NCBI RefSeq assembly: GCF_000013725.1
Contig: NC_007955.1
Span: forward strand, 1,891,579 to 1,955,578
Origin: Methanococcoides burtonii DSM 6242
Lineage (GTDB): Archaea > Halobacteriota > Methanosarcinia > Methanosarcinales > Methanosarcinaceae
Length of the DNA: 64,000 nucleotides
Direction of reading: 5' to 3'
Shown: in pieces, positions 23,473-52,683 of the stretch
How positions within the stretch are numbered: the first letter of the stretch is position 1
How the letters are laid out: each line of letters begins with the position of its first letter
Made by a program: the position numbers and the translations under genes
The notes under the pieces: model-generated
The model's database searches: none
Seen by the model: only the letters and a program-made list of their open reading frames with translations
Told to the model about the DNA's origin: nothing

Positions 23473-24085
23473 TAATCTCATCTTCCAAACCTTTCAACGA
23501 GATCCTTGAAATGCTCATGGACAAGGATGCTGTCTATATTATTGGATGCAGCGTGTGTGCCGCCAAACAGCACGTAGGTGGGGAGCCCGAGGTCGCAGAG
23601 ATGGTATCTCTTCTCTCTGATGCCGGAGTAAATGTTATTGGGGGGGCCGTGGCAAAAGCTGCATGCAGTGTTCGTTCATGTGAGTATCTTATGGAGCTTG
23701 CCCCGAACATCAAAGATGCTACTGCTGTTCTGGTAATGGCATGTGGCAGCGGCACTTCGAACATTGCACGTTTTGTGGATGTGGATGTTTATCCTGCCAA
23801 CAACACCGACTCGCTGGGTGCCATGACAGGGGATAAGGTCATCCATAATCTGTGTGCTATGTGTGGTCAGTGTTCGATCGCCGATTTTGGCGGCATCTGT
23901 CCCACAGCGCAGTGTCCCAAGGAATTGCTTAACGGTCCCTGTGGCGGTTCAATGGATGGCAAGTGCGAGGTCGACCCTGAGAAGGATTGTGCGTGGGAGT
24001 TGATCTATGAACGTCTTGAGAGGCTAGGCAGGCTGGACCTTCTGGAAGAGGTTCGGGATGCTAAGGATAGATTGGTGAAGTGAGT
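22703..24085 (+). repeat. direct duplication, copy 1 (folP-like 3' part plus metV)
   Basis: This 1383-base segment recurs at 31372-32729 (1358 bases). The 25-base difference is explained exactly by one 24-base deletion and one single-base deletion in the second copy. Copy 1 is the intact one in its native gene context. Most differences between copies are at silent codon positions. Confidence 0.85.
23469..24083 (+). CDS. metV: MetV, zinc/iron-sulfur partner of methylene-THF reductase
   Basis: A 204-residue protein of the methylene-THF reductase C-terminal family with many cysteines: CSVCAAKQH near the N terminus and CAMCGQC...CPTAQCPKELLNGPCGGSMDGKC near 128-165. In acetogens MetV pairs with MetF in a heteromeric methylene-THF reductase. 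The metF gene lies at 54172, about 30 kb away, with the accessory island between. A second, nearly identical metV lies at 32113. Confidence 0.88.
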   Translation: MIISSSKPFNEILEMLMDKDAVYIIGCSVCAAKQHVGGEPEVAEMVSLLSDAGVNVIGGAVAKAACSVRSCEYLMELAPNIKDATAVLVMACGSGTSNIARFVDVDVYPANNTDSLGAMTGDKVIHNLCAMCGQCSIADFGGICPTAQCPKELLNGPCGGSMDGKCEVDPEKDCAWELIYERLERLGRLDLLEEVRDAKDRLVK

Positions 24086-24225
24086 TCTATTTTTATTCAA
24101 TTCTGAAGAATATGAGTTTTTTGTTTGCCCACGTTTAATTTATGGTCTGTACAGGAGAAAAGAAGACCTGGTATCACCTTCCATTTCTTTGATACTGGGC
24201 TCATCCTGACATCACGATCTGATGA

Positions 24226-24957
24226 TTAACTTGCTGAAATGGCAGGTTCCGATTCTGATATGGCCTTTTTCAAGTCTACTTCGATTGCCGGGTTAATAAA
24301 GTATCTTTTGTATTTTCCATCGTTCTCAAAATCTACTAACCCTTCGTTGTACATATCATTGATATGCCAGTGTACAGTGCCTTTATCCAGATGGAAAGTC
24401 TGTGTAAGGTCCTGATTTGTTATTCCCGGTTTATGCAGTATGTAAATCAAAATTGATTTTCCCGTATCATTTCGCAGGAAAAAGATGATTTTCTTTTCTG
24501 TAGCCGTATATTTGCATGAATTCTTAAAAAGCAGCACTAACTTCCCTTTTTCCAATCGGGTTATTTTGTTGTTAAATTGAAGCACTTTCAAATGATATCT
24601 TACATTACTTCTTTTCATCCCAAGGGCCTTTTCTATATCAGATATTGTGCTCCCGGGATTAGTTGTTATGTAGTAAAGAATTCGATCTCTGTTGGGGTTT
24701 TCATATTTTTGTTTTATCCTTCCTAAAAGAAGGGGTAAAAATTTGTAAACGACTAATGAGGCACCCAATAACCCCGAGATGTAGACTGCCTGAAGGGATA
24801 ACGGTAGTTCCCAGAAAGATAGGGTGGTGGTGGCGCCACCCCTATACATATCCATTTCAGGATCTGGATCTAAAATAATTTCATACTCACTTGCAGTGGC
24901 TAAAGTGGAACTGCAAACGAGTGTGAATAGCAAAAACAGAGTCCATAACTTTCTCAT
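24226..24957 (-). CDS. membrane-anchored double winged-helix regulator, paralogue A
   Basis: A 243-residue protein: N-terminal signal-like segment (about 4-23), short external region, membrane helix (about 53-76), then two winged-helix domains in the cytoplasm (about 85-150, with DIEKALGMKRSNVRYHLKVL; and about 155-230, with LTQTFHLDKGTVHWHINDM). This layout suggests a one-component sensor that reads the membrane or outside and binds DNA. It is downstream of a small exported protein (17-base gap) and opposite an exported-protein gene. A paralogue of the same length class lies at 35501. The likely target is the inverted repeat at 25467-25490, by inference. Confidence 0.75.
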   Translation of the reverse strand: MRKLWTLFLLFTLVCSSTLATASEYEIILDPDPEMDMYRGGATTTLSFWELPLSLQAVYISGLLGASLVVYKFLPLLLGRIKQKYENPNRDRILYYITTNPGSTISDIEKALGMKRSNVRYHLKVLQFNNKITRLEKGKLVLLFKNSCKYTATEKKIIFFLRNDTGKSILIYILHKPGITNQDLTQTFHLDKGTVHWHINDMYNEGLVDFENDGKYKRYFINPAIEVDLKKAISESEPAISAS

Positions 24958-24974
24958 AACAATGGAAACAATTT

Positions 24975-25397
24975 TCAGATATAATAATCTTCTGTGCCCG
25001 AAACACTATGGCCATAAACCTCATGATGCCAGGTTCCGATGTCAATTCCATTTGAGTTTCTTATTGCAAATTCAATTCTTCCATCGATGACACCGTCGGA
25101 ACTGTCATAGAATGTCTCGATTAGCTGGTTGCTCGGGTTGTACACTTTTAACCTGAGTGAATCACTTGTATCTCCCCAATTCAGATCAACATATAATGCA
25201 GTGGTGTAGGAACTGATAGGTACACCGTGCCAGTTTGTTTCTCCCTGTGTGATAGTATCGCCAATCCATCTGGGTGTAATCGTAATGTCTGATTTGACAG
25301 GAACGATGGTATATCCGTTGTCTTGACTGGCGGTAGCTGCAGCAAAAGATACCGATATAAGCATTATTATTAGCAAAAATCCTATTTTTTTGATCAT
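24975..25397 (-). CDS. small exported beta-rich protein, paralogue A
   Basis: A 140-residue protein with a clear signal peptide (about 1-22, ending SFAAATA). The mature part is rich in beta-strand pattern, with WGDTSDSLRLKVYNPSNQL and a terminal YGHSVSGTEDYYI resembling PPC-type domains. An AGGAG site precedes the ATG. It is cotranscribed with the wHTH regulator and may be its external sensing partner. Paralogue at 36253 differs by scattered substitutions. Confidence 0.68.
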   Translation of the reverse strand: MIKKIGFLLIIMLISVSFAAATASQDNGYTIVPVKSDITITPRWIGDTITQGETNWHGVPISSYTTALYVDLNWGDTSDSLRLKVYNPSNQLIETFYDSSDGVIDGRIEFAIRNSNGIDIGTWHHEVYGHSVSGTEDYYI

Positions 25398-25454
25398 AAA
25401 TTTACTCCTATTATTCTATCAAACTTTGATGTGAAAAAAGAGAATATAAGTTTT

Positions 25455-25514
25455 GTGACCATATCGTCCAACTGAAAGAAAACAGTTGGATGATGTGGTT
25501 AGAAAGTATTTATA
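25455..25514 (+). promoter_or_regulatory. operator-promoter module, copy 1
   Basis: GTGACCATAT at 25455, then a perfect inverted repeat TCCAACTG-N8-CAGTTGGA (25467-25490), exactly 16 bases, then TATTTATA (25507-25514) with a BRE-like AGAAAG before it. Compared with copy 3 the second arm position changes on both sides (C/G to G/C), so symmetry is preserved. It also lies near a minus-strand TATA (CTTATATT, about 25442-25449) for the exported protein/regulator pair. Confidence 0.75.
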
Positions 25515-25530
25515 CTGTCTCTCATCTAGG

Positions 25531-25686
25531 ATATATTGCAACATCGTAAAGATGTTCGGGAGTGGGATCAGCTTGATTTTACGGCGATGGCTGAACTACA
25601 TTCTCTGGGGACAGGTTAGGCTTTTAGTTTACACTATATGGGCGTAGCTTTGCTTCTGAAGCAATTGAACAAATGAGGTAAATAAA
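25531..25686 (+). promoter_or_regulatory. structured 5' leader, copy 1 (diverged)
   Basis: Shared with copies at 32921 and 36810: hairpin AACATC-GTAAA-GATGTT (25540-25556), the TTACACTAT strand (25629-25637), GCGTAGCTTTGC, and a hairpin TTGCTT-CTG-AAGCAA (25650-25664, 7-base spacing aside perfect) just ahead of the GAGGT ribosome-binding site. The long closing stem has two mismatches here and the G/A-rich strand of the putative pseudoknot is lost, so this is the most diverged copy. Confidence 0.55.
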
Positions 25687-26496
25687 ATGAAAACAAATGT
25701 GAAATCTGGAATTGGAGTGATTCTAACAGCAATGTTGCTTGTTAGTATGTTGCTTATGCCAGCTGTGAGTGCAAAAGCCGAAACTACATGGCATAGCCAA
25801 ATGCTAGAATCGAATGGAATTTCTACTAACGATTTTGATGTTAAATTGACCAGCTACGAAAAAATAGGAGAGGAAATTCACTATACTGGTGATTTTAAAA
25901 TTGATGTCGAAAAAATGATAGATGGAAAACTCAAAACATTGAAATCAAAAGGAACTATTTCAGGAATAGTAAACCAAGATGGTACAATAAATGTTGAATA
26001 TAGTGGAAACAACTTCAACTTTGTCTTGAATTCAATGAAGATTGGGGATGATCAAGAAAATGTTCTGTACCAATTTGATCAAGTTTTGACGGTTGATGGT
26101 AAAACAGAAAACTCAAAGGATATCATAAAAGTTCCCAAAAACCAAATTACTCTTATAGATAAAGAAATGCAAGCTTCTTTAACAGAAGATCAGGTTTCTA
26201 GCTTCCTCAAATCAAAAACAAAGGTTGATTTGCCAAGCACTGCACCTGGGGGATCTCTCCTAATCTATAATGATGTGCAATATGCAGATCTCTTAGTAAC
26301 AGGCGGAATTATCATCGCAATATTAGTATTTTTCAGTATGGGTACTACTGCTGGATTAGGTGCTATAGTTCTTGCAGTTGCTGTCGCAGTACCGGAGTAC
26401 TATGATGTTGACACTCGAGATATATATATAGACTTCTTCTTGACTCTATATCCACTTAGTACAATGCATGTTGAAGTTGACTATTTCTACTATTAA
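25687..26496 (+). CDS. exported/membrane-attached protein, unknown
   Basis: A 269-residue protein with a signal peptide (about 8-30, PAVSAKA), a lysine-rich beta-type domain (about 33-190) and a hydrophobic stretch (about 200-238) followed by an aromatic tail. It follows a GAGGT site and the structured leader. It is the plus-strand product of cassette A; no family recognised. It ends at a strong hairpin. Confidence 0.62.
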   Translation: MKTNVKSGIGVILTAMLLVSMLLMPAVSAKAETTWHSQMLESNGISTNDFDVKLTSYEKIGEEIHYTGDFKIDVEKMIDGKLKTLKSKGTISGIVNQDGTINVEYSGNNFNFVLNSMKIGDDQENVLYQFDQVLTVDGKTENSKDIIKVPKNQITLIDKEMQASLTEDQVSSFLKSKTKVDLPSTAPGGSLLIYNDVQYADLLVTGGIIIAILVFFSMGTTAGLGAIVLAVAVAVPEYYDVDTRDIYIDFFLTLYPLSTMHVEVDYFYY

Positions 26497-26497
26497 A

Positions 26498-26517
26498 AGG
26501 AGAAGATTTCTTCTCCT
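26498..26517 (+). terminator. terminator hairpin
   Basis: Perfect inverted repeat AGGAGAAGA / TCTTCTCCT with two loop bases, followed by ACATTTTT, right after the stop of the exported protein gene. Confidence 0.65.
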
Positions 26518-26567
26518 ACATTTTTAAACAAAATCTGAAATAATATATAACTACTGGAGAACAAAGA

Positions 26568-26756
26568 ATGAATGAAAAATATATTCAATTATCCTTTTAT
26601 TTTTTAATAGTTTTAGCCTTCATAGCAGCATTTTACAATGCTTATATGCAGTGGTTCAGAAATGATTTTAATTTACTTCTACTAATTCTTACAGTGCTTT
26701 TTTCATTGAGTGCAATAGTGGTAAAAAAATACATTAGGGCGAACAATATTAATTGA
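26568..26756 (+). CDS. small two-helix membrane protein
   Basis: A 62-residue protein with two hydrophobic segments (about 8-26, 33-50). The YNAYMQWFRNDFNLLLLILTVLF stretch resembles YNGYQAWFYYNLSLTLVYLTLILV in the protein at 52946, so the two are distant paralogues. Function unknown. Confidence 0.5.
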   Translation: MNEKYIQLSFYFLIVLAFIAAFYNAYMQWFRNDFNLLLLILTVLFSLSAIVVKKYIRANNIN

Positions 26757-26786
26757 ACAACTCCAAGTATCAGTGGATTATGAAGG

Positions 26787-26975
26787 ATGGACTACAATAT
26801 TTCTGTTTACCCCCGAAGAAATATTGTGCTAGGACATGAGACGGCAGCTACCGGCATATTTATTGGTTTCATAATGATTTCAATTATTTTCTATTCGTTA
26901 CTCGGGTCATTTTGTGCATTTTCCACATTTAACCTGAAAACAGACAATCAGGATAGTAGTGGGGAGCAATTATGA
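26787..26975 (+). CDS. small single-helix membrane protein
   Basis: A 62-residue frame with one hydrophobic helix (about 22-46). Its stop overlaps the next ATG (ATGA, 26972-26975), the same junction that links the PLDc_N-type gene to its partner at 52680. No family recognised; coupling to the next gene supports translation. Confidence 0.4.
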   Translation: MDYNISVYPRRNIVLGHETAATGIFIGFIMISIIFYSLLGSFCAFSTFNLKTDNQDSSGEQL

Positions 26976-27439
26976 TAAAAGAAGTTCAAAATTTAAGTCA
27001 CAATATCGCAAAATATCTTTCTCGCAGATATGCAAATGCACATACCAACTTTGGATACGCAAGTCACTATCTTTCAGATCCTGGCATTCCTTTCCATAGC
27101 ACAGGAGCAACTGACTATTTAGGTGGTTTCGTTGTCGCTTTATTTAATGCTGCATTACACATCAGTTATGAGAGTTACGTGGCTGATGAATGGACAAGTG
27201 GGTATGATTATAGCTACTACGTGACAGACAATTCTCAATCAAACACTGTAACCGACCCGGCACAGGCCGTAAAAGATAATGCAGAACACAGTGCTCAGTA
27301 TTATTCATACATTACAAATGAAATGACCACCAATCCAACAGGTTGGAAAACGGACATGATGCTGGCATATTACACTGCACAGTGTGTACAAGAAACTTCG
27401 AAGTATAATCACGGACTATATGACTATATCATGTCCTGA
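26972..27439 (+). pseudogene. chimeric fragment: small membrane-protein N terminus joined to zinc phospholipase C/P1-nuclease-like C terminus
   Basis: The first 23 residues (MIKEVQNLSHNIAKYLSRRYA) match the N terminus of the protein at 52680, and the DNA is nearly identical over about 40 bases up to about 27039. The rest (HTNFGYASHYLSDPGIPFHS; a later His-rich/Tyr-rich region) resembles the C-terminal part of zinc-dependent phospholipase C/S1-P1 nuclease proteins, without the N-terminal half and the signal peptide that such exported enzymes need. It is most simply a recombination product, though the frame is open. Confidence 0.6.
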
Positions 27440-27446
27440 GGTTGAA

Positions 27447-28220
27447 ATGGCTTCAATTGGTGAATTCGTGTCGAAAGTTAAGAAGAAGATGCCTTTAGAG
27501 GCTCTTCTTTTCTTTATGTATCATATATGGATTTCCGTTATAGGTTTGACGATGATTGTCGTGATTGGAACAGGAATCCAGTATGGCCTGCATACATATA
27601 CATTGGTAATGACGCTAGGGTTATTTGTTCTGTTTTTTGTGCCGATTACCGCCATCGGGCAGAATATTGTAAGAAACATGAAGGATGCTAGGAGGGTTTG
27701 GTGCTGTATACCTTTGCTAATTGTTGGTATAATTCAGACTATGGCGGCTATAATTGGACATGCTAAAGTCATGGTCTATGAAACTCATCCTGATTCGTTG
27801 ATATATGCCTTGATGTTCCCTATCCAGAGATTTGCACAAATTGCAATTGATCCTATAATTGAGGATGTTTTCGATATGGGCTTCCCGTATAATCAGCTGC
27901 CTCTGATTATATTCTATATTATCTTTCTTCCTCTCAGTCTGTTTATTTACTTGCTGCCTTCCATAGGCTATGATAGGATGAAGGTCACAAAAGAGATGAA
28001 ACTAATTGCCGTATTACCATTACTTTGTATTGCTATTCCAATAATTATACAGACAATTAAAATGAGTTTAGGATTGATCGATGAAATTATGATTAAATTT
28101 TTCTGGTTTGAGATATCCTCAAATATCCTCCGAATGGGATTTCTATTAATGCCGATTTTGGGTATTTTGTATATCAAACACCACAATAAACTTATGAGAG
28201 TCCACGCAGAAGAATCTTAA
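27447..28220 (+). CDS. multi-pass membrane protein, unknown, paralogue 1
   Basis: ATG 27447 with GAGGTTG just before it is chosen; an upstream in-frame start at 27384 lies inside the preceding frame. The 257-residue protein has about seven hydrophobic segments. Its N terminus (MPLEALLFFMYHIWISVIGLTM) resembles that of the protein at 28364 (APWEVSLFFMGWIWLGWSVFG), so they form a diverged pair. No catalytic motif seen. Confidence 0.5.
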   Translation: MASIGEFVSKVKKKMPLEALLFFMYHIWISVIGLTMIVVIGTGIQYGLHTYTLVMTLGLFVLFFVPITAIGQNIVRNMKDARRVWCCIPLLIVGIIQTMAAIIGHAKVMVYETHPDSLIYALMFPIQRFAQIAIDPIIEDVFDMGFPYNQLPLIIFYIIFLPLSLFIYLLPSIGYDRMKVTKEMKLIAVLPLLCIAIPIIIQTIKMSLGLIDEIMIKFFWFEISSNILRMGFLLMPILGILYIKHHNKLMRVHAEES

Positions 28221-28363
28221 ATTCGTTGTTAATTGAAACGAGGTCTATGGAATACTGAAAAAATCGGCTAAGGAATGCGGGGAATTTGGTATCGTCGTAT
28301 CGTAACTGACGTAACGCAATCATAAATTAGTAAGTATGACTACATAATGGGTTTTGATCTTAT

Positions 28364-28951
28364 ATGAGAAGTGAAATTAAAGAGGCGCCTTGGGAGGTAT
28401 CTCTTTTCTTTATGGGGTGGATTTGGTTAGGGTGGTCAGTATTCGGAATGACTTTAGCCAACATGTACTTGTCTGATCAGTTTTTAGATGTTTATCACTC
28501 AACCATAGGTGCTATATACATGCTTCCAATGCTCATGATTGGGCTTAAAGTACTTAAGGGTAAAAATGTTGCTGGTCTGCCTTTGTTTGTCTGTTCATGT
28601 ATAATTGGAGTTTTGGCAATTATTTCGCACTCAAAGCTCAATTTGGGAATTGAGAATGAATTTGATTTTTTACAAGGAATTGCAGTTGTATTGCTTGCAT
28701 TACAGCTAGTAGCAATGCCTATAAGTTTCTACATTTATGCTCGTTCTATCGGATGCGACAATACTAGGAATCTGAAGATAATTCTAATTTTTTCTGCAAT
28801 GAATGGATTAGTGCTTGTTTTCAATGGGTTAAGCAGTTCCCATGGTGTTAATAGTGAATTCATTAGCGTTTTGATGCTATCTTTTTTGTTTGTGATTGGA
28901 CCTATATTGGGGGGATTGTACATCTGGGAGGTTATGTCAAAGAGTAGCTAA
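28364..28951 (+). CDS. multi-pass membrane protein, unknown, paralogue 2
   Basis: A 195-residue protein with about six hydrophobic segments and the N-terminal motif shared with the 27447 product. No Shine-Dalgarno site is seen before the ATG. The 143 bases between the pair hold no recognisable feature. Confidence 0.48.
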   Translation: MRSEIKEAPWEVSLFFMGWIWLGWSVFGMTLANMYLSDQFLDVYHSTIGAIYMLPMLMIGLKVLKGKNVAGLPLFVCSCIIGVLAIISHSKLNLGIENEFDFLQGIAVVLLALQLVAMPISFYIYARSIGCDNTRNLKIILIFSAMNGLVLVFNGLSSSHGVNSEFISVLMLSFLFVIGPILGGLYIWEVMSKSS

Positions 28952-29050
28952 GTTATGGTAATTTAGATCCGGACTATGCAAGGTATTAGTAAATGTAACT
29001 AAAACAGGGATGGAATCAAATATATTTTTGAATAATATGGGGATGGAAAT

Positions 29051-29335
29051 TTGAAAAAGAACACAATCGAATGGATAATCATTGGAATTATAGCTGTAAC
29101 AATAATTACAATGGCATTTTATATGGGTCAATTACTATGGGGAATCGTTGCAATAGCGACTGTTTTCTGGCTCTTCATGTTATGTGACTGCCTTCAAAGG
29201 GACACAGGGGATTTTCCCAGCAAGGGGATAATAAAAAACTGATCTGGTCGCTTATTCTAATTTTCCTGAATTTCATAGGTGCGATACTGTATTATTATCT
29301 GGTTAAGGTGCAAAATAATGATGGGACTCGCTCTT
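29051..29335 (+). pseudogene. PLDc_N-type small membrane protein with frameshift
   Basis: The first 57 residues after TTG 29051 match the proteins at 44265 and 52393 (MGQLLWGIVAIATVFWLFMLCDCLQR). A one-base loss near 29222-29226 shifts the frame to an early TGA at 29240, but the downstream DNA still encodes LIWSLILIFLNFIGAILYYYLV in the shifted frame up to about 29335. The PLDc_N second helix is therefore cut off. Confidence 0.7.
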
Positions 29336-29457
29336 AAATTTTTAGATTTTGGTGAAGGGAGGCTCAACCGCCAAATCCAGTTGAAGAGCTAAAAGCCCTT
29401 TCTTCTTAGATCAGGCCATAAGGTAAACAAAAAATATGTCTTAATTGAGGTAAACAA

Positions 29458-30018
29458 ATGAAGAGTAAATTCAAAAGACATTCAATGCTCATCTTGTTCA
29501 TGATACTCTTGTCCGTTTTTATTTCAGGTTGCGGAGAAGAGCCCAGCGCGGAAGAAGTTGTATCTAATATGCAGGTGAAAATGGATGGTCTCGAAGACTA
29601 CTCTTTTACAATGTTCAGTCATTCAAGTTTCCAGGAACAGGGCGTGGGAACACAGAAAGTCATATGGAAAAAACCTGATCTTATGAAAACGATTATCAGA
29701 GTCCCGGATAAAGGTACGGAAGTAATTATGATCTCTGATAGAGAATTCCAGTGGATCTATGATTCCGAATCTGAGACTGTTTTCAAAACGGATATTTCTG
29801 ATGGTCTTGATGGTTTGAAAATATTTGAGCCTAATGTTTTTGCTGAGTTTCTGAATGGAACTCTAATGGGGAAGACGGCTTCTCTGCTTGGAGTAGAGGA
29901 CTTGGATGGAAACAATGCATATTTGCTTGAACTCACTCCTTCCGAGAACAATAAAAGTTCTCTTCAAGGGAGATCGATGATCTGGGTTGATAGGGATACC
30001 TGGATGCCTATCAGATAG
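29458..30018 (+). CDS. LolA/RseB-like lipoprotein with C terminus cut by TAG
   Basis: A 186-residue protein with signal peptide and lipobox (SVFISGCGEE, Cys at about residue 26), then a beta-rich domain of the outer-membrane-lipoprotein-carrier/sigma-regulator type (QVKMDGLEDYSFTM; WKKPDLMKTIIRV; WVDRDTWMPIR). The family normally goes on after this motif. Here TAG 30016-30018 ends it, the next codons (ELYESSDLAK) continue the expected sequence to a TGA at 30049, and a second frame (EDIDVTILSSLDKVELLDIAENIT) carries the end to 30123. So the tail is decayed, or TAG is read as pyrrolysine and only the last part is lost. Confidence 0.6.
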   Translation: MKSKFKRHSMLILFMILLSVFISGCGEEPSAEEVVSNMQVKMDGLEDYSFTMFSHSSFQEQGVGTQKVIWKKPDLMKTIIRVPDKGTEVIMISDREFQWIYDSESETVFKTDISDGLDGLKIFEPNVFAEFLNGTLMGKTASLLGVEDLDGNNAYLLELTPSENNKSSLQGRSMIWVDRDTWMPIR

Positions 30019-30160
30019 GAGCTATATGAAAGCTCTGACCTGGCAAAATGAAGATATTGATGTTACTATTCTTTCTTCCCTTGATAAGGTGGAGCTATTG
30101 GATATTGCAGAAAATATTACCTGATCTATTTAGTGAAGTTGTAAAAAACTCCTTGATCTT

Positions 30161-30220
30161 GTGACTATATTTTCCAACCGAAATGAAACAGTTTGATGGT
30201 ATGGCTAGAAAATATTTATA
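30161..30220 (+). promoter_or_regulatory. operator-promoter module, copy 4
   Basis: GTGACTATAT at 30161, an imperfect inverted repeat TCCAACCG-N8-CAGTTTGA (30173-30196), exactly 16 bases, then TATTTATA (30213-30220). The leader from here to the ATG at 30392 is strongly diverged; only the CTAGAATA segment after the TATA box and the TTGCC...GAGG end resemble the other copies. The 30019-30160 stretch holds only the decayed end of the lipoprotein gene. Confidence 0.65.
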
Positions 30221-30391
30221 GGGTGAGTTCCTAGAATAACCTATACATCCGAAAAAATACTAAGTGAGGTCTAATTAATTTTCCTGGGTGAATTTAAACT
30301 CCACCTACAGAGGCATGGATGTGTTTTCCTTGTACTTATTTAGAGCTTACCTGATCTTGCCTTTGGGGTGAATGAAATAAAGAGGTAAAAG

Positions 30392-31288
30392 ATGAAATTA
30401 AAACTACTTTTAGGACTGCTTATTGTAGTCGGTATGATCGGATTCGGATTGGCAACTGAAGAAAGTGAAGAACAATTACTCGGAAGAGTCCTGACACCGG
30501 ACGAAGTAATGGCAGTTTTTGGCAATGCTTCATGGGATTATCAAATACCTGAAGAATTACGGCAGGATTCAATTAAAAGAACAATAGCATCTGAAAAAGA
30601 AGATAAAAAACCACTAACACCTGAAGAAATTGCTGAAATAAATGCTAATGCTCCTGAAGGGATGTTTTTGGTAAGTGGAATTGAAGATGTTTCTATGAAT
30701 AGAGCATCATCAGGAAATACGGGAATTGAAAACCATGATGAACCTTTTTCCTATGTAACTTACGGAAAAGTTCCTTATTTTGATATAGAAGATGAGAGGG
30801 GTGAGTGGCTTTACAATCTCAAGATTATTATCAGTGCTTCAGAAACAGAAATGGAAAGCCACATCCGACCCGAAGGTTCTGTATATTCTTATGGACACAG
30901 CTATGACGGATACATTTCAATTGGAATTGTAGCAGATTCAGGAATTAATGACTCCTTGATGGATGAAATCTATGATATTTTTGATCAACATGCACAGGAA
31001 ATTGGTATTGAAGATGTGCCTGTTTTGTTTGAGTACGGAGATATCGAGGCTGGCGAAGCTATTGATGAAGAAGATGGTATTGTTGACAGAACCATTGCAG
31101 TGATAGATGATGATGGAAATGTTATCATCTATGCAGAGGATGAAGCATATTTCGACGAAGAGGGAAATCTTGTGATCATAGGCAATGAAACAACACAAGA
31201 AGAAAACGGGACAAATAAGCAAACACCAGGATTTACCTCAATAATGCTCATTATCGGACTGTTGTTATCGGCAAGGAGTAGAAAGTGA
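30392..31288 (+). CDS. PGF-CTERM surface protein with one copy of the repeated exported domain
   Basis: A 298-residue protein preceded by AGAGGT. Signal peptide about 3-22; acidic linker with CPxE-like LTPEEIAEINANAPEG; shared domain at about 115-220 (YGKVPYF...MESHI...SYDGYISIGI...INDSLMDEIYDIFDQHAQEIGIEDVPVLFEYG); acidic stretch (DDDGNVIIYAEDEAYFDEEG); then TPGFTSIMLIIGLLLSARSRK, a PGF-CTERM tail for archaeosortase processing. The last 60 residues are almost identical to those of the TAG-interrupted gene ending at 35374. Driven by module copy 4. Confidence 0.7.
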   Translation: MKLKLLLGLLIVVGMIGFGLATEESEEQLLGRVLTPDEVMAVFGNASWDYQIPEELRQDSIKRTIASEKEDKKPLTPEEIAEINANAPEGMFLVSGIEDVSMNRASSGNTGIENHDEPFSYVTYGKVPYFDIEDERGEWLYNLKIIISASETEMESHIRPEGSVYSYGHSYDGYISIGIVADSGINDSLMDEIYDIFDQHAQEIGIEDVPVLFEYGDIEAGEAIDEEDGIVDRTIAVIDDDGNVIIYAEDEAYFDEEGNLVIIGNETTQEENGTNKQTPGFTSIMLIIGLLLSARSRK

Positions 31289-31296
31289 TAGTTTTT

Positions 31297-31355
31297 GTGG
31301 TCATATCTCCAACCAAAAAGGAACATTACGATGATGTGAGCTGAGAATATTCATT
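31297..31355 (+). promoter_or_regulatory. operator-promoter module, decayed copy 5
   Basis: TCCAACCA-N8-CATTACGA (31308-31331), 16 bases, then TATTCATT (31348-31355). Spacing is identical to the four better copies, but the second arm has two changes and the TATA box two. It directly abuts the duplicated folP'-metV segment that starts at 31372, so that segment replaced whatever gene it once served. Confidence 0.55.
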
Positions 31356-31371
31356 CTGGTGTTCTCTATAC

Positions 31372-32116
31372 ATGCCATCATGCGTTCGGAATAGCGTAGA
31401 ATTGATACTGATCAGCTCATACTGGACCCTGCCATCGGTAAATGGGTGCCGGAAAAATCAGCGATGTACGATCTTGAGATCATCGATAGTTCGAACGCCT
31501 GAAAGTGTTCGAAAAACCATTGCTTGCAGCCATCTCACGCAAATCTTTCATTGGGGACCTGCTCGACAAACCCGCAACTGAGCGTCTGTACGGAAGTCTG
31601 GCGGCAGCCGCCATCGTTGTGCAGAAAGGGGCTCACATCATCCGCACTCACGATGTTGCAGAGACATTCGACGTTGTGCAAATTGCGGCCGCTGTACGAA
31701 GCAGGCAGCCCGTTGTGGAAGAGAACGGTTTTGAGGTAAGTGTTCTGGACATTCCCTATCCTGATGATGCTGCTCTTTCCATGCGAAATATAGGTGTTAC
31801 CGGCACAGGTTCTAAGATAATGAAGAACAAGACGGTGTCCCGTGTGCTGCGTATCAGTAATATCACAACTACAGAGGCATTGATAATCAAACAGGAGATC
31901 CTGGCAAGGGGCGGGGATGCAGCACTGGAAAGGGATGCGGTTTCCCATGAGGTAGAAAAGACCGATGTCATTGTCATTGGTACACTGTTGCAGGTCAGAA
32001 AACTTGCAGACAAGCTCGAGTGTCAGGCAAGGAACCTTCCTCTTATCTCAAAGATGATAAAGGATACACTGAAGAAGGAATCAGACATTGAATACCGTTA
32101 TTTGAGGCAATCATGA
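31372..32116 (+). pseudogene. truncated folP-like gene (duplicate)
   Basis: The segment matches 22703-23472 of the intact gene. It lacks the N-terminal half, has a 24-base deletion near 31386-31400 and a one-base deletion near 31487 (CATCGATAGTTCG against CATCGACCAGTTCG). An open frame from GTG 31505 still covers the end of the barrel and the whole C-terminal extension with only a few amino-acid changes, so a C-terminal fragment could still be made. It overlaps metV copy 2 by 4 bases. Confidence 0.8.
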
Positions 32117-32727
32117 TAATCTCATCTTCCAAACCATTTAATGAGATCCTTGAAATGCTCATGGACAAGGATGCCGTTTATATTATCGGTTGCAGCGTCT
32201 GTGCTGCCAAACAGCACGTAGGCGGTGAGCCCGAGGTTGCAGAGATGTCATCTCTTCTCTCTGATGCCGGAGTAAATGTTATCGGGGGAGTCGTGGCGAA
32301 AGCTGCATGCAGTGTCCGGTCCTGTGAGTATCTTATGGAGCTTGCCCCGAACATCAAAGATGCTACTGCTGTTCTGGTAATGGCATGCGGAAGCGGTACT
32401 TCCAACATCGCACGCTTTGTGGACGTTGATGTCTATCCGGCCAACAACACCGAATCCCTGGGTGCCATGACAGGGGACAAGGTCATCCATCATCTGTGTG
32501 CCATGTGCGGTCAGTGTACGATCGCCGATTTTGGTGGCATCTGTCCCACAGCACAGTGTCCCAAGGAATTGCTTAACGGTCCTTGTGGTGGTTCAATGGA
32601 CGGCAAGTGCGAAGTCGATCCAGAGAAGGATTGCGCGTGGGAACTTATCTATGAACGTCTTGAGAGGATAGGCAGGCTGGACCTTCTGGATGAGGTTCGG
32701 GATGCCAAGGATAGATTGGTGAAGTGA
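32113..32727 (+). CDS. metV: second MetV (methylene-THF reductase partner), intact duplicate
   Basis: A 204-residue protein that differs from the 23469 copy at 7 residues by my count (about 97% identical), all mild except one V-to-S. All cysteines of the two clusters are kept. The DNA has many more silent than replacement changes, which suggests selection after duplication or gene conversion. It has no evident promoter of its own beyond the remnant at 31297-31355. Confidence 0.8.
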   Translation: MIISSSKPFNEILEMLMDKDAVYIIGCSVCAAKQHVGGEPEVAEMSSLLSDAGVNVIGGVVAKAACSVRSCEYLMELAPNIKDATAVLVMACGSGTSNIARFVDVDVYPANNTESLGAMTGDKVIHHLCAMCGQCTIADFGGICPTAQCPKELLNGPCGGSMDGKCEVDPEKDCAWELIYERLERIGRLDLLDEVRDAKDRLVK

Positions 32728-32845
32728 GCTTTCCCGGTCTTTCTGCAATTGGAGATGCTTTTTGTTGGTCGACTTCAGAGTTGGGTCTCGCACTTTTCTC
32801 CTGATTTCTACCACATCTTCTGTAAAAAATATGATCTATGTATCA

Positions 32846-32904
32846 TGACCATGTAATCCAACTGTTCTCTTTCAGTTCGATGATGTGGCTAGAAAATATT
32901 TATA
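32846..32904 (+). promoter_or_regulatory. operator-promoter module, copy 2
   Basis: TGACCATG at 32846, inverted repeat TCCAACTG-N8-CAGTTCGA (32857-32880, one mismatched pair), exactly 16 bases, then TATTTATA (32897-32904) with BRE-like AGAAAA. It drives the secreted protease gene. The 32728-32845 stretch before it holds nothing I recognise. Confidence 0.72.
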
Positions 32905-32918
32905 CTGCTTCTTGCCTA

Positions 32919-33070
32919 GGACATAGTGTAACATCGTAAAGATGTTAGTGGGGATTCAGCCAGTCTTGACGGAATAACTGAACCCCGTGCCCGGAGGCAA
33001 AGTTAGGTTTTGCTGTTTACACTATATAAGCGTAGCTTTGCTCCTGGAGTAAATAAATGAGGTCTGTCTT
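32919..33070 (+). promoter_or_regulatory. structured 5' leader, copy 2
   Basis: Readable pairings: closing stem ATAGTGTAA (32923-32931) with TTACACTAT (33017-33025), perfect 9 bp; hairpin AACATC/GATGTT (32930-32946); stem GGGG-TTCAG (32950-32959, one bulged A) with CTGAACCCC (32978-32986); GGAGGCAAAG (32993-33002) complementary to CTTTGCTCC (33036-33044) outside the closing stem, a pseudoknot geometry; and a hairpin TTGCTC/GAGTAA (33038-33052) that uses the same bases as the pseudoknot. GAGGT at 33059-33063 follows. The mutually exclusive pairings next to the ribosome-binding site are riboswitch-like. The estimated transcript start (about 32924-32930) may clip the first bases of the closing stem. 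Confidence 0.6.
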
Positions 33071-34162
33071 ATGAAAAATATGTTAAAGATAAGCTTGAGT
33101 ATAATGATAATAAGCATTATGATCACTGGCTTTGCATGGGCGGGATCATCCGATTCCAGTCAAAATGAATCTTTTGAAGAAGAATACTATTTCCCGGAAT
33201 ATGGTTCAGTCACATTTGATTCCCTAAAAGAAGATTCAAATGTGATTGAAAGTCGAGGAACGGTACCTGAAATTACAGAGGATAAAGCAAAAGTGGAATG
33301 GTTGGATACGATTAAGGAGAGTATCAATGATTCTGAAAATGAACTTCATCCCTACATGAAAGAACATGGAGGGCCTTTGACTGGTTTTGGTGTAAACTAT
33401 GGAGGATATTTATTTGTAGAGTTTGATGAGGAAGTAAAAGATATTGATAAATCTACAATTGACAAATTCTACAATATAATAGATGCAAATGCAAAAAAAG
33501 CAGAATTATCTGATGTTCCAGTAGTTTTCAGAAAAGGAGAAAAAGTGTATCTTGACTCACGTACTTCTGTATGGAATAATCTAATTGGTGGTATACAGAT
33601 AGTAAGATTAAGTGGTACAGCCTCAACACTATCATTTGCTGCAGAAGATAGTAGCGGCACAAAAGGATTTGTAATGTCTGGGCATGCAGCTTATAATGCA
33701 GGTGGTGTTGGTGCAAGCATTTATCAACCTACAACTGCAAGAAAAGTAGGTGAAGTCGATTATTACACATGTCATTTTGCAGATGCTGCATGGGTGGAAG
33801 CCAGTAATGTCGAAGATGATATTTATTATGGCGACATTAATGATGTTAGAGATGTACGCAGTTATTATGATCCATCCTTAGGCAGCCAAGTCTACATGTC
33901 AGGAATAACAAGTGGTCTGACATCTGGCAATGTTAAAGAGACATATATAAATAAAAACAGCGCCACTTTTGGAACTCTTTATGATCAATTTGTTGCAGAT
34001 TATCCCTGCGCTGGTGGCGATAGTGGTGCTCCTGTCTTTACGATGTATGGGGATCAGGTAATAATTCGTGGTGTACACTGGGGACATAATACCACTAATT
34101 CCTTTTTCTCACCAATTAGTGGTGTTGAGCTGGATTTAGATGTAACTCCTCTGAAAGCTTGA
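33071..34162 (+). CDS. secreted trypsin/streptogrisin-like serine protease with N-terminal repeat domain
   Basis: A 363-residue protein: signal peptide (about 4-25), one copy of the island's shared domain (about 60-158: SRGTVPEI...LHPYMKEHGG...GGYLFVEF...TIDKFYNIIDANAKKAELSDVPVVFRKG), then a chymotrypsin-fold protease with His in FVMSGHAAY (about 202), Asp in HFADAAWVE (about 238) and Ser in CAGGDSGAPVF (about 318). The N-terminal domain occupies the place of the propeptide in alpha-lytic/streptogrisin proteases. No PGF-CTERM tail, so the product is probably released. Under module copy 2 and its leader. Confidence 0.78.
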   Translation: MKNMLKISLSIMIISIMITGFAWAGSSDSSQNESFEEEYYFPEYGSVTFDSLKEDSNVIESRGTVPEITEDKAKVEWLDTIKESINDSENELHPYMKEHGGPLTGFGVNYGGYLFVEFDEEVKDIDKSTIDKFYNIIDANAKKAELSDVPVVFRKGEKVYLDSRTSVWNNLIGGIQIVRLSGTASTLSFAAEDSSGTKGFVMSGHAAYNAGGVGASIYQPTTARKVGEVDYYTCHFADAAWVEASNVEDDIYYGDINDVRDVRSYYDPSLGSQVYMSGITSGLTSGNVKETYINKNSATFGTLYDQFVADYPCAGGDSGAPVFTMYGDQVIIRGVHWGHNTTNSFFSPISGVELDLDVTPLKA

Positions 34163-34189
34163 ATACAAAGAATATTTTAAATTTTTTGT

Positions 34190-34210
34190 CAAATTACGAG
34201 TTGTAATTTG
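34190..34210 (+). terminator. hairpin after protease gene
   Basis: Perfect 8-bp stem CAAATTAC-GAGTT-GTAATTTG followed by a T-rich run, 28 bases after the protease stop. Confidence 0.5.
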
Positions 34211-34300
34211 GCATTTCTTTATTTCAACTAACATTATTAATATTTCACACTATTGTTTTAATATGTTACAACACACATTGATATTTGCTGGGGCCATAAA

Positions 34301-35374
34301 ATGCTAGAGAAAAGGAAAATAGGAATATTAGTGATAATTGCATTATTTGTTTGTTTTTTGTCATTTGATTCTGCAAATGCTGCTAATGAAGCATTAAATA
34401 ATTCTGACTATAATGACAAAGTTTCTGATTCAAATAACTCAAATATCGCTTTTGAAGAATATGAGGGCGACCCATTGTTCATAGATAACAGAGGAACCTT
34501 TCCAAAAACAATTAACCAAGAGTGGGAAAACTCGATTAATAGGTGTTGGCTTTCTCTTACTAAAAATGCACCATCATATACAATTGATAGCTCTATAAAA
34601 ACCATTGGTACAAATGGTGAATTTATTATAGCAAATTTAGGTTCTGATTAGCAGGGAAAGATAAATGAGTCAAAAATTGATGAAATCTACCGGAAAATCG
34701 ATGAACAATGTGAGCAGGAAGTGGGAATCAGTGATATACCCGTGGTCTTTATGTGGGCACAGGATGATGAGGATATGCCCCTTCCTGACTATGGCCCTGA
34801 GATATTTGAAGAAGCTAAAAGCAGTCCATCGTTTATAGCTGCCTACGGGACAATGCCCGTAATCAAGCAGGAAAGTGAAAAAAGAAGCTGGACGGATCAG
34901 CTTGGCCATTCCAAGGGCAGGGAACTGGATCCGTTTTTTGCTGAATTTGGCGGGCTTGTAATAGGTTATGGGGTAAGCATTAATGGATATCTGTCTGTGG
35001 GTCTGGACTCAGAAAATTCGGAAAAAGTAAATGAGTCCGTAATTGATGAAATATATCAGACAATAGACAGCCACTTTGAACAGGAAGCAGGCATAAATGA
35101 AGTTCCCGTAGTATTTGAATGGGAGGGACGTGCTGTTGAAGACGAACTAGAATATACTTCTTCACCAGATGAGGAAGATATTATAGTGATAGGTGATGAT
35201 GGAAATCTTATAACCTATACCAAGGATGAAGCCTATTTCGACGAAGATGGGAATCTTGTGATCACAGGCAATGAAACAACACAAGAAGAACCTGGGACAA
35301 ACAAGCAAACACCAGGTTTTATCTCAATAATGCTCATTATCGGACTGTTGTTATCGGCAAGGAGTAGAAAGTGA
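34301..35374 (+). CDS. PGF-CTERM surface protein with two repeat domains, interrupted by one in-frame TAG
   Basis: One frame runs from ATG 34301 (signal peptide about 8-27) to TGA 35374, broken only by TAG at 34649-34651. The TAG falls inside the first copy of the shared domain, between EFIIANLGSD and QGKINESKIDEIY; the second copy follows (about 180-280) and then the TPGFISIMLIIGLL PGF-CTERM tail. Signal peptide and sorting tail are thus on opposite sides of the TAG. Methanosarcinaceae can read UAG as pyrrolysine, so this is either a 357-residue read-through product or a gene with a recent nonsense mutation. The frame on both sides remains intact. Confidence 0.65.
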
Positions 35375-35437
35375 TGGGTTTTGGGGTTCTTTGTTACATT
35401 TGCCCACGTTTCATTTATGGTCTGGTACAGGAGAAAA

Positions 35438-35457
35438 GAAGGGGTGGTGTCCCCTTC
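35438..35457. terminator. hairpin between convergent genes
   Basis: Perfect 7-bp stem GAAGGGG-TGGTGT-CCCCTTC between the PGF-CTERM gene and the minus-strand wHTH gene. The matching place in cassette A (about 24160-24185) keeps the flanks but has a weaker stem. Confidence 0.5.
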
Positions 35458-35500
35458 TATTTCTTTAATAGTGGATTATATTCTGAAATCACGATGTTAA

Positions 35501-36238
35501 TTAACTAGCTGAAATGATAGGTGCGGCTTCCGATATGATATTTTCCAAGTCCACTTCGATTGTCGGGTTAATAAAGCATCTTTTGTATTTTCCTTCGTTC
35601 TCAAAATCTACAAGGCCTTCATTGTGCATATCATCAATATACCAATGCACGGTGCTTTTAGCCAGATCAAAAGCGTGTGTGAGATCCTGATTTGTTATTC
35701 CCGGTTCATGAAGAATGGAGATCAAAATGGATTTCCCTGTGTCATTTCGCAGGAAGAAAATAATTTTCTTTTCTGTATCCGTATATTTGTACGAATTTTT
35801 AAAAAGCAGTACAGAGTTTCTTTTTTCAAATCGGGTTATTTTGTTGTTAAATTGAAGCACTTTCAAGTGATATCTTATATTGCTTCTTTTAATTCCCAAG
35901 TTTTTTTCAATATCAGTTATTGTGCTTCCGGGATTAGCTGTTATGTAGTAAAGAATTCGATCTCTGCTGGGGTTCTCGCATTTTTGCCTTATCCTTCCTA
36001 AAAGGAGGGGTAAGAATTTGTAAGCGATTAATGAGGCACCCAATAACCCGGAGATATAGGCTATTTGAAGGGATAACGGTAGTTCCCAGAAAGATAAGGT
36101 GCCGGTGAAACCACCACCTTCATACATACCTCTTTCTGGACTCGTATATGGAACTACTTCATACTCGCTTGCACTAGCCAAGGCTGGACTGCAAACGAGT
36201 ATAAAAATCAAAAATGGAATCCATAAATTTCTCATCAC
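35501..36238 (-). CDS. membrane-anchored double winged-helix regulator, paralogue B
   Basis: A 245-residue protein close to the 24226 product along its whole length: signal-like segment, membrane helix (about 55-78), and two winged helices (DIEKNLGIKRSNIRYHLKVL; LTHAFDLAKSTVHWYIDDM). Recognition helices of the second domain differ (LDKGTVHWH against LAKSTVHWY), so the two may prefer the two operator variants found beside them. It follows the small exported gene after 14 bases. Confidence 0.75.
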   Translation of the reverse strand: MMRNLWIPFLIFILVCSPALASASEYEVVPYTSPERGMYEGGGFTGTLSFWELPLSLQIAYISGLLGASLIAYKFLPLLLGRIRQKCENPSRDRILYYITANPGSTITDIEKNLGIKRSNIRYHLKVLQFNNKITRFEKRNSVLLFKNSYKYTDTEKKIIFFLRNDTGKSILISILHEPGITNQDLTHAFDLAKSTVHWYIDDMHNEGLVDFENEGKYKRCFINPTIEVDLENIISEAAPIISAS

Positions 36239-36252
36239 AATGGAAATAATTT

Positions 36253-36675
36253 TCAGATATAATAATCTTCTGTACCTGTGACACTATAGCCGTAAACCTC
36301 AGCATGCCATGTTCCGAGTTCAATTCCATTTGAATTTGTTATTTCAATATTAATTCTTCCATCGATAGCACCGTCGGCACTGTCATAGAATGTCCCGATT
36401 AGCTGATTGCTTGGGGTGTACACTTTAAGCCTGAGTGAATCGCTTGTGTCACCCCAATTTAGATCTACGTGAAGGGAAGTTGTGTAAGAACTGACTGGTT
36501 TATCATGCCAGTTTGTTTCTCCCTGTGTGATGGTGTCAGCAATCCATCTGGGTGTAATTGTATCGTCTGATTTGACAGGGGCAATGGTATATCCGTTATC
36601 CTGACTGGTGGTAGCTGCAGCAAAAGATACTGATATAAGCATTACCATTAGTAATAATCCTATTTTCTTGATCAT
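36253..36675 (-). CDS. small exported beta-rich protein, paralogue B
   Basis: A 140-residue protein with signal peptide (about 1-22) and the same length and C terminus (GTEDYYI) as the 24975 product; substitutions are scattered over the mature part. AGGAG precedes the ATG. Cotranscribed with wHTH paralogue B from a promoter facing away from module copy 3. Confidence 0.68.
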   Translation of the reverse strand: MIKKIGLLLMVMLISVSFAAATTSQDNGYTIAPVKSDDTITPRWIADTITQGETNWHDKPVSSYTTSLHVDLNWGDTSDSLRLKVYTPSNQLIGTFYDSADGAIDGRINIEITNSNGIELGTWHAEVYGYSVTGTEDYYI

Positions 36676-36733
36676 AATTTTTCTCCTATGATTTTATCAA
36701 ATTGACATGTGAAAAAAACAGGATATAAGTTTT

Positions 36734-36793
36734 GTGACCATATCGTCGAACTGAAAGAAAACAGTTCGATGATGTGGTTAGAAAGTATTTATA
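36734..36793 (+). promoter_or_regulatory. operator-promoter module, copy 3
   Basis: GTGACCATAT at 36734, perfect inverted repeat TCGAACTG-N8-CAGTTCGA (36746-36769), exactly 16 bases, then TATTTATA (36786-36793) with AGAAAG before it. The outer arm base pair differs from copy 1 on both sides, so the palindrome itself is conserved. Confidence 0.75.
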
Positions 36794-36808
36794 CCACCCA
36801 TCATCTAG

Positions 36809-36964
36809 AATATAGTGCAACATCGTAAAGATGTTAGTGGGGGTCCAGCTTAATCTTACAGTGATATCTGAACCCCGTGCCCGGAGGCAAGGTTAGGTTT
36901 GTAGTTTACACTATATAAGCGTAGCTTTGCCTCTGGAGTAATTGAACAAAGAGGAAAAGAAAGA
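36809..36964 (+). promoter_or_regulatory. structured 5' leader, copy 3
   Basis: Closing stem ATAGTGCAA (36812-36820) with TTACACTAT (36906-36914), one mismatch; hairpin AACATC/GATGTT (36819-36835); GGGG...CCAG (36839-36848) with CTGAACCCC (36868-36876); GGAGGCAAGG (36883-36892) fully complementary, with wobbles, to CTTTGCCTCT (36925-36934) beyond the closing stem; and a competing hairpin TTGCCT/GAGTAA (36927-36941), weaker than in copies 1 and 2. GAGG at 36951-36954 precedes the ATG. Confidence 0.6.
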
Positions 36965-37369
36965 ATGAAAATAAGTATAATTGGAAAGCTTGGAATTGCG
37001 ATGCTAGTAATGTTGCTAGCTGCTGGAACAGTTTCAGCATCTGGTGGCTCATCGTATTCCAGTCCAGAAACGATCTATGTTCCACTAGGAACTATTGACA
37101 TATGGTCAGGAGACTGTGATAATGAGGACTGGTATCGGTTTGGTACCAATCATTGGGAGGATGTTTACATAGATTTGGACAACACATTTGCACAGGATGG
37201 CGGTGAGATGAACCTACATGATGATGCTGAGAATGATATTATCGCGTGGGTTAGCAGTTCAAGCTCCAACCATTGGTGCGATCCATCAAATGCGCTGCCT
37301 TGTATTGAAATCGAGGAGGGGACTACATCTGACTACGACTTCATTGTAGGTAGATACGACTTTAGTTGA
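36965..37369 (+). CDS. small exported protein, unknown
   Basis: A 134-residue protein with signal peptide (about 8-26, AGTVSA) and an acidic mature part (YVPLGTIDIWSGDCDNEDWYRFGTN; FAQDGGEMNLHDDAEND) resembling a PPC/beta-sandwich domain by pattern only. Two Cys pairs could form disulfides outside. It is the plus-strand product of cassette B. Confidence 0.55.
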   Translation: MKISIIGKLGIAMLVMLLAAGTVSASGGSSYSSPETIYVPLGTIDIWSGDCDNEDWYRFGTNHWEDVYIDLDNTFAQDGGEMNLHDDAENDIIAWVSSSSSNHWCDPSNALPCIEIEEGTTSDYDFIVGRYDFS

Positions 37370-44228: not shown

Positions 44229-44264
44229 GTAATGTTATTTTTTTAAATTTAGGGGGTTATAAAT

Positions 44265-44546
44265 TTGAACAAGAGAATGTCAGAATGGGCAATTATTGGA
44301 CTTATAATATTCTTTACGATACTTATAGGTCAGCTATTATGGGGAATTATTGCAATAGCGACGGTTTTCTGGATCTTCATGTTATGTGACTGCCTTCAAA
44401 GGAACACAGAGGATTTTCCCAGCAAAGGAGATAATGAAAAACTAATCTGGGCGCTTGTCCTAATTTTCCTGAATTTCATAGGTGCTGTACTCTATTACTA
44501 TCTGGTCAGGATGCAGGGTCTGGATGGTTACAATCGGAAAGGGTAA
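44265..44546 (+). CDS. small PLDc_N-type membrane protein
   Basis: A 93-residue protein from TTG 44265 with GGGGGTT upstream. Two membrane helices (about 8-42 and 60-81) and LIWALVLIFLNFIGAVLYYYLVR, the pattern of the PLDc_N (cardiolipin synthase N-terminal) family, here without an enzyme domain. Homologues at 52393 (intact) and 29051 (frameshifted). Confidence 0.65.
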   Translation: MNKRMSEWAIIGLIIFFTILIGQLLWGIIAIATVFWIFMLCDCLQRNTEDFPSKGDNEKLIWALVLIFLNFIGAVLYYYLVRMQGLDGYNRKG

Positions 44547-52175: not shown

Positions 52176-52392
52176 AAATTCCAATTCCGTGTTCTTCCAA
52201 GAATAAAACAATTGTCAATACAATATCTCACTAATTATATAGTATATATCATTAGAACTTAAGATTTTTACCTAAAGAGAATTGCTTTTAACTTTAATTT
52301 TTCGCGTCATTGTTCTGTTTTCCACCCACACATTTTAAATATCATTGTAGCATTTACAATTTGTTTTCTAATGTATTCATGGATCTATTAAC

Positions 52393-52683
52393 GTGAGCAA
52401 AATAAGATCAGAATGGACAATAGTTGGACTTATGGTATTCTTTACCATACTTGTTTTTACATATCACATAGGCCAGCTATTATGGGGGATCATTGCAATA
52501 GCTATTCTTTTCTGGGTATTCATGTTATTTGACTGCCTCCAGAGGAATGCAGATGATTTTCCACACAAAGGAGATACTGATAAACTGATCTGGTCGCTTG
52601 TCCTAATTTTTCTGACTTTCATAGGTGCGGTGCTGTATTATTATCTTGTAAGGATACAGGTTCGTGAGGTTGATCAATTATGA
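52393..52683 (+). CDS. small PLDc_N-type membrane protein
   Basis: A 96-residue protein from GTG 52393, closely similar to the 44265 product (IGQLLWGIIAIAILFWVFMLFDCLQRN; KLIWSLVLIFLTFIGAVLYYYLV). Its stop overlaps the next ATG by 4 bases (ATGA). Likely a small membrane-spanning partner protein; function unknown. Confidence 0.65.
   Translation: MSKIRSEWTIVGLMVFFTILVFTYHIGQLLWGIIAIAILFWVFMLFDCLQRNADDFPHKGDTDKLIWSLVLIFLTFIGAVLYYYLVRIQVREVDQL

Follow-up and report, generated by a model that had tools for sequence, protein, structure and literature searches.

In a stretch of 64,000 nucleotides from Methanococcoides burtonii DSM 6242 (contig NC_007955.1, positions 1,891,579 to 1,955,578; in the following termed the window and numbered from its first base), several genes for exported proteins are preceded by a common arrangement of a DNA operator and a structured RNA leader. 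The operator unit is a directional half-site of 19 bases (CAGTTSGATGAWRTGGNCA) that is followed by (T/C/G)AAA and, at fixed distance, by a transcription factor B recognition element (BRE)/TATA box; each intact module is followed, past the TATA box, by a conserved and structured 5' leader that occupies approximately the 130 nt before the start codon. As an explanation of the whole, a control of exported proteins in two layers, by this operator and by this leader, appears fairly probable.

Operator half-sites in the genome and in the window

The half-site was recognized from a BLAST search with one module, in which weak matches elsewhere had one arm and its outer flank in common. When the genome (a single contig of 2,575,032 bases, to which all coordinates prefixed C1 refer) was scanned with up to three mismatches, 46 matches were obtained compared to 4 for the reversed pattern; 14 half-sites carried no or one mismatch. 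Each of these 14 has a TATA-like box downstream at a roughly constant distance. The next gene encodes an exported protein, a lipoprotein or a membrane protein, or else it belongs to a regulator operon (see below; this operon is itself among the targets). Eleven of the 14 are located less than 3 kb from one of only five regulator genes. A random distribution over the genome without link to exported genes, for which a genome-wide scan had been proposed as the check, is clearly contradicted by these results.

The initial annotation had drawn the operator as an 8-base inverted repeat with N8 spacer at four modules (25467, 30173, 32857 and 36746), and their coordinates and spacing proved correct: The box TATTTATA is present at 25507, 30213, 32897 and 36786, each time exactly 16 bases past the repeat, with an arm complementarity of 8/8, 6/8, 7/8 and 8/8, respectively (only 1-4/8 at the remaining five TATTTATA sites of the window). 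The complete pattern of arms, N8, 16 bases and TATTTATA (up to three mismatches) was found in the whole genome at the four window places only, the reversed control giving no match; TATTTATA by itself is unspecific (340 copies across the genome). The inverted repeat with a fixed 8-nt spacer as binding unit is contradicted by half-sites that occur singly (C1 positions 210102, 692934, 693818, 1800664) and by divergent pairs with other gaps, i.e. approximately 47 nt at C1:1833.8k and approximately 58 nt in several genomes of group g13. The 8-nt gap is kept beside the regulator in most genomes of Methanococcoides (group g1) and of the groups g9 and g14, and CAGTTGGATGATTTGGYCA with larger gaps is present in g13 (g1 and g13 are presumably Methanococcoides and Methanosarcina, the genus names serving as leads only). 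The paired change to C or G at the S position of both arms, noted earlier in the window, recurs in the relatives, with the same base on both sides in most paired sites beside regulators.

In the modules at 25467 and 36746, the half-site recurs in opposite orientation as the left arm, with its own TTATAT box before a minus-strand operon; the earlier palindrome is therefore a symmetric divergent promoter. Indeed, these are the two modules that had been described as standing opposite genes of membrane-bound winged helix-turn-helix (wHTH) proteins. In the first, the left half-site CAGTTGGACGATATGGTCA (25456-25474) and its TTATAT box (25444-25449; 25444-25474 as a unit, minus strand) face the operon of regulator 1 and its partner P140, and the right half-site CAGTTGGATGATGTGGTTA (25483-25501) with TATTTATA (25507-25514; unit 25483-25514, plus strand) precedes an exported protein of 269 aa (25687-26496, plus strand; signal-type N-terminus, no Pfam family). 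In the other, CAGTTCGACGATATGGTCA (36735-36753) and the TTATAT box (36723-36728; unit 36723-36753, minus strand) face the second regulator operon, and CAGTTCGATGATGTGGTTA (36762-36780) with TATTTATA (36786-36793; unit 36762-36793, plus strand) precedes a small exported protein of 134 aa that is PPC-like by eye (36965-37369, plus strand). The left half is decaying at 30173 and 32857, where the divergent gene is no longer present: The former module retains a weaker half-site CAGTTTGATGGTATGGCTA with TATTTATA at 30213 (30189-30220, plus strand) in front of an exported protein with a C-terminal anchor of the type PGF...transmembrane (TM) helix...RSRK (30392-31288, plus strand). The latter (32846-32904, plus strand) consists of the left half-site CAGTTGGATTACATGGTCA without clear TATA box (32846-32864, minus strand) and the right half-site CAGTTCGATGATGTGGCTA (32873-32891) with TATTTATA at 32897, followed by an exported trypsin-like protease candidate (33071-34162, plus strand; GGDSGAPV motif, weak Trypsin_2 match with E 0.07) that has a paralog behind the same leader at C1:1437.6k. 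The products downstream of the four modules are, as had been assumed, predicted to be exported. The decayed copy near 31308 is present as well (31308-31355, plus strand), with TATTCATT in place of TATTTATA and without leader (no covariance-model match).

Two other interpretations of the repeat region were discarded: A transcribed RNA hairpin is ruled out by the position upstream of the TATA box, and the matches to Rfam sRNA162 at 25386-25508 and 36690-36787 are at chance level (26 bits, cut-off 78). A lipoprotein resembling a serpin (by eye only) is encoded at C1:1832383-1833756 behind the divergent half-site pair with the 47-nt gap.

The structured RNA leader

The four leader copies of the window, all on the plus strand, are located at 25559-25689 (P1, P2 and Shine-Dalgarno (SD) region), 30262-30396, 32947-33073 and 36836-36965 and reached 95.7, 84.2, 102.8 and 131.2 bits, respectively, with a covariance model built on 12 copies, the last being the best match. 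Similar leaders are also present at loci without the operator. The model detected 18 copies in this genome; within the family, 67 of 112 genomes gave matches, and within the order 101 of 186. Weaker but coherent matches were obtained in other families of the phylum, where the downstream genes again mostly have a signal-type start. In the alignment of 118 distinct leader sequences, 87.8% of the cells were paired (35-50% with slid partners) and 23 of 28 pairs had changed on both sides (14.3 in shuffles; score.263 versus.171, reached by 0 of 500 shuffles). From the 12 leaders of this genome, MAFFT/RNAalifold yielded P2 only; P1 was drawn by hand and then backed by the 118 sequences. Judged by this alignment, the fold that precedes the genes is conserved and has undergone compensatory changes, as is expected of a structured cis-regulatory RNA. 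The leader is the most novel element of the arrangement and uncatalogued: Rfam 15 gave no leader match in the window at E≤1 and none at gathering threshold in six leader-rich loci.

By a crude measure applied to both sets, a hydrophobic N-terminal segment is present in 105 of 108 proteins encoded behind leaders and in 48% of nearby open reading frames. In their mature parts, the proteins behind leaders are diverse. Half-sites with up to four mismatches are carried by 68 of the 118 leaders (expected 0.2%), and their start falls into one of two ranges upstream of the leader, -50 to -52 or -70 to -77. The expected transcription start is situated approximately 26-29 nt past the TATA start: In the -50 class it is P1 that begins near this point, in the other class a small additional hairpin (AACATCGTAAAGATGTT in this genome).

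The closing arms of P2 read GAGGCAA/TTGCCTC. With GAGGTAA, the ribosome-binding region nearly repeats the 5' arm, so that the 3' arm of P2 can pair with either. The complementarity between the 3' arm and the SD region was stronger for own than for swapped partners (-8.87 versus -7.76 kcal/mol, 0 of 1000), and this excess was maintained when swaps were confined to the genus or to the genome (0 of 2000 each). The pairing is read here as a putative SD-masking helix in competition with P2. A mini-ORF (AUG AGG UAA) over the SD in some leaders was dropped as a candidate feature, being not conserved.

Two further observations concern the leader loci. Near-identical promoter and leader regions stand before unrelated mature proteins at the locus pairs L004/L005 and L007/L010 and at many others, as if shuffled as a cassette that often includes a common signal peptide (MK.N.K.GIG.LL.AMLLVSMAF.PAVSA). 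In related genomes, Rfam matches were obtained for the pyrrolysine insertion element PYLIS_5 (L154:16982-17081) and a group II intron end (L164:2886-2994).

Membrane-anchored regulators and their distribution

Regulator 1 (24226-24957, minus strand; 243 aa) is predicted to consist of a signal-type helix, a short outside segment, one TM helix and two C-terminal winged helices; regulator 2 (35501-36238, minus strand) is 77% identical, the window copies being 243-245 aa long. The AlphaFold model of regulator 1 shows helices at residues 2-21 and 53-84 and wHTH domains at 88-145 and 152-221. Its Pfam scores are 58.9 bits for HTH_24 and 46.3 bits for HTH_HVO_0163_N (PF24266; gathering cut-off 31, also exceeded by the paralog at C1:209 kb with 53.7 bits); both winged-helix assignments lie above curated cut-offs and denote domain families only. 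HVO_0163 is reportedly mentioned in a study of the haloarchaeal lysine acetylome. The cut-off of the ArsR/SmtB metalloregulator model NF033788 (55) was missed by the window regulator (43.2 bits) and exceeded by the 209-kb paralog (62.2 bits, from its wHTH only). Only five copies occur in this genome: regulators 1 and 2 of the window, a further two at 206-210 kb, and a paralog at 693 kb that a frameshift has split (C1:692957-693714; perfect half-sites on both flanks, 692934 on the minus and 693818 on the plus strand).

Directly upstream of the regulator, most related loci encode a homolog of the secreted partner P140 (about 140 aa), in the window at 24975-25397 (same operon as regulator 1) and at 36253-36675 (partner of regulator 2), both on the minus strand. 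P140 has a predicted jelly-roll/PPC-like domain: The best Foldseek matches of its model (mean pLDDT 78) were jelly-roll/PPC-type domains, namely chains of the archaeal subtilase Tk-SP (E 9.5e-5, TM-score 0.55). A G-Y-x-V-x-P stretch is common to the outside segment of the regulator (residues 23-57) and the N-terminus of mature P140, and a conserved F-W-E-x-P-L motif precedes the membrane helix of the regulator within the same short segment.

Among the 112 family genomes, 66 contain regulator homologs. Half-sites with TATA box flank the regulator at 27 of 29 loci examined (0.14 per locus in shuffled sequence), and the family-wide operator pattern yielded 212 sites (reversed control 1), 204 of them in regulator-bearing genomes (mean 3.1 versus 0.17 per genome); each of the 27 genomes with a close regulator ortholog has sites (Fisher 1.7e-12). 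The link of operator and regulator in these genomes is a strong association, as distinct from a proof of binding. The initial annotation had proposed one regulon of exported proteins under the wHTH regulators, and the rarity of the sites, their TATA boxes, the exported genes, the clustering near regulators and the co-distribution argue in its favor; the operator had been misdrawn, however, the RNA leader had been overlooked, and the binding of the wHTH proteins is one that we infer.

Proposed two-layer control and alternative explanations

According to the proposed mechanism, the membrane-anchored tandem-wHTH regulator would bind CAGTTSGATGAWRTGGNCA just upstream of BRE/TATA, and the co-encoded secreted P140 with its modeled jelly-roll may help to sense the cell surface. 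Since the half-site abuts BRE/TATA but leaves it uncovered, recruitment of the basal machinery, i.e. activation, is the most likely mode. Back-to-back half-sites would form a symmetric divergent promoter with the regulator operon on one side and the exported gene on the other. In the second layer, the mRNA would start with the structured leader, hairpin P1 being close to the predicted 5' end, and the P2 3' arm (UUGCCUC) would pair either with its own 5' arm (GAGGCAA) or with the SD region (GAGGUAA), by which translation would be unmasked or masked. The comparative data show the half-site, its spacing, the co-distribution with the regulator, the RNA fold, the covariation of arm and SD and the bias toward exported products; binding, activation, the sensed signal and the P2/SD switch are inferred.

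Several points weigh against this mechanism. The class I sites at C1:1800.6k, 1833.8k, 1836.4k and 1839.1k have no regulator gene nearby, several genomes of group g10 with distant regulator homologs carry no site, and the half-site could be bound by another factor, with the regulator as no more than one of its targets. The single pair flanking CCTC/GAGG is only modestly non-random (47 of 79 complementary versus 35.8 +/- 3.9), and the own-partner scores are somewhat inflated because recent duplication copies arm and SD together; SD masking may also be constitutive, a static hairpin without switch. Finally, approximately 42% of the sampled leaders have other upstream elements, so that the leader is not dependent on this operator.

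These other elements include recurring classes, e.g. CTGATGAATATTCATCACCGTAAT (18), GTTAACAAGAAAGCTAATATGTGTAACCC (6) and ATATTCGCAAATCACGGTCACCAATTATAAATA (5), and no regulator homolog was found in the loci searched for them, which have the same leader. The leader thus looks common to exported-protein mRNAs and the operator interchangeable. We tentatively consider, with less than even confidence, a class-wide leader for exported proteins in Methanosarcinales that reaches other families of the phylum: Its P2/SD exchange would couple the synthesis of secreted proteins to a surface or export signal, and interchangeable operators, one of them read by the membrane regulator, would choose the transcribed subset. 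A second operator class was seen at C1:1190.8k and 1201.8k (L065) and at the loci L154-L156, where CTGATGAATATTCATCACCGTAAT precedes a TAATGTATA box and no wHTH homolog is present.

The leader might instead be chiefly an mRNA stabilizer, its 5'-terminal hairpin protecting abundant surface-protein messages against 5'-3' exonuclease without any switching. The start of P1 or of the additional hairpin near the expected transcription start would suit this function, and exported products may need abundant, stable mRNA (as for S-layer and ompA leaders); the covariation between the P2 3' arm and the SD flank, which is seen even among paralogs of one genome, would be left unexplained, and we regard stabilization as the chief role as rather unlikely.

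Still less likely is an unlinked transcription factor that binds the half-site and has the membrane wHTH genes only as members of its regulon. Half-sites precede the regulator operons themselves, so that the co-location fits both readings, and some sites have no regulator gene in their vicinity. On the other hand, sites and regulator are co-distributed over the 112 genomes up to the complete set of close-ortholog genomes, and in the searched loci with other operators, which agree in leader and in type of exported gene, no regulator is present.

That leader and signal peptide form a shuffling cassette spread by recombination, with conservation due to recent copying and not to selection, is improbable. 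Promoter-leader blocks, often including the signal peptide, are indeed near identical before unrelated mature proteins (C1:1437.5k and 2165.6k, for example, in promoter and leader), but the compensatory changes and the order-wide spread show long-term selection on the fold, and spread as a cassette and function may both hold. Lastly, that the modules are mere leftovers of local duplication without regulatory meaning, as the duplicated blocks of the window (see below) could suggest, is highly improbable and already largely refuted by cross-genus conservation, given that the combination of half-site, spacing and leader is found before unrelated genes, both at loci far apart and in many genera, and that the leader shows compensatory changes.

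Comparison with known systems and significance

In its mode of action, the proposed two-layer unit is closest to ArnR/ArnR1 of Sulfolobus acidocaldarius, a membrane-bound one-component HTH regulator with inverted repeats upstream of BRE/TATA and surface-structure targets (PMC6396743); for the M. burtonii regulators binding is presumed, and the site position is consistent with it. In ArnR, the HTH is N-terminal and the two TM helices are C-terminal, with HAMP and sensor domains also present (PMC6396743). In contrast, alignment and model indicate an N-terminal signal/TM part and two C-terminal wHTH domains for the regulators described here, an opposite topology that places them outside the ArnR/ArnR1 type. 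The motif differs as well, the exported targets are many and diverse, and an RNA leader is present; the comparison is one of layout, not of homology. With Pfam-supported wHTH domains and the helix 53-84 preceding them, the regulators agree with the definition of transmembrane transcription regulators (a predicted TM region and a DNA-binding domain in one protein) given in the available text of a survey, in which such proteins are enriched in methanogen-containing classes (PMC10269533). For this subgroup, no operator or target regulon is named in that text, nor a secreted partner or an RNA leader (PMC10269533).

With a P2 and an anti-SD helix that exclude each other, the conserved 5' untranslated region (UTR) resembles SD-masking riboswitches and RNA thermometers. 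The leader differs from these in having no known aptamer or Rfam match and in preceding genes that have export and not a pathway in common; the alternative SD helix would be the sole supported element of a riboswitch. For the related methanogen Methanolobus psychrophilus, the available text of one study describes temperature-selected 5' UTRs of single genes with a predicted stem-loop hiding the ribosome-binding site, and two transcription start sites of the cell-surface gene Mpsy_1554; a shared structured leader is not described in that text (PMC5378194). Neither operator nor leader was found described in a literature search, the scope of which left out most subscription journals.

To our knowledge, only a few regulons of cell-surface proteins have been described in archaea, where structured regulatory RNAs of natural origin are rare as well. 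The analysis yields a defined operator, approximately 16 target promoters in one genome and, as candidate regulator, a membrane-bound protein with secreted partner, as well as an uncatalogued RNA element before more than 100 exported-protein genes; methanogens could by this means control their secretome as a unit. Operator and covariance model together provide a sequence handle for finding exported proteins, and genetic tools exist for Methanosarcina.

Duplications in the window

Three pairs of blocks are similar within the window: 24124-25696 and 35399-36974 (83% identity), 32794-33052 and 36679-36941 (77%), and 22733-24084 and 31378-32728 (92%). Because they are partly duplicated, the four module copies are not four independent observations; independence of the evidence comes from the other genomic loci and the other genera. 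The block 31378-32728 contains a truncated dihydropteroate-synthase-like gene and an intact neighbor of 204 aa and resembles a partial duplication behind the decayed promoter. A repeat of approximately 290 bp is present in four genomic copies with 74-81% identity, three in the window (29021-29312, 44236-44515, 52386-52663) and one at C1:2162122-2162402.

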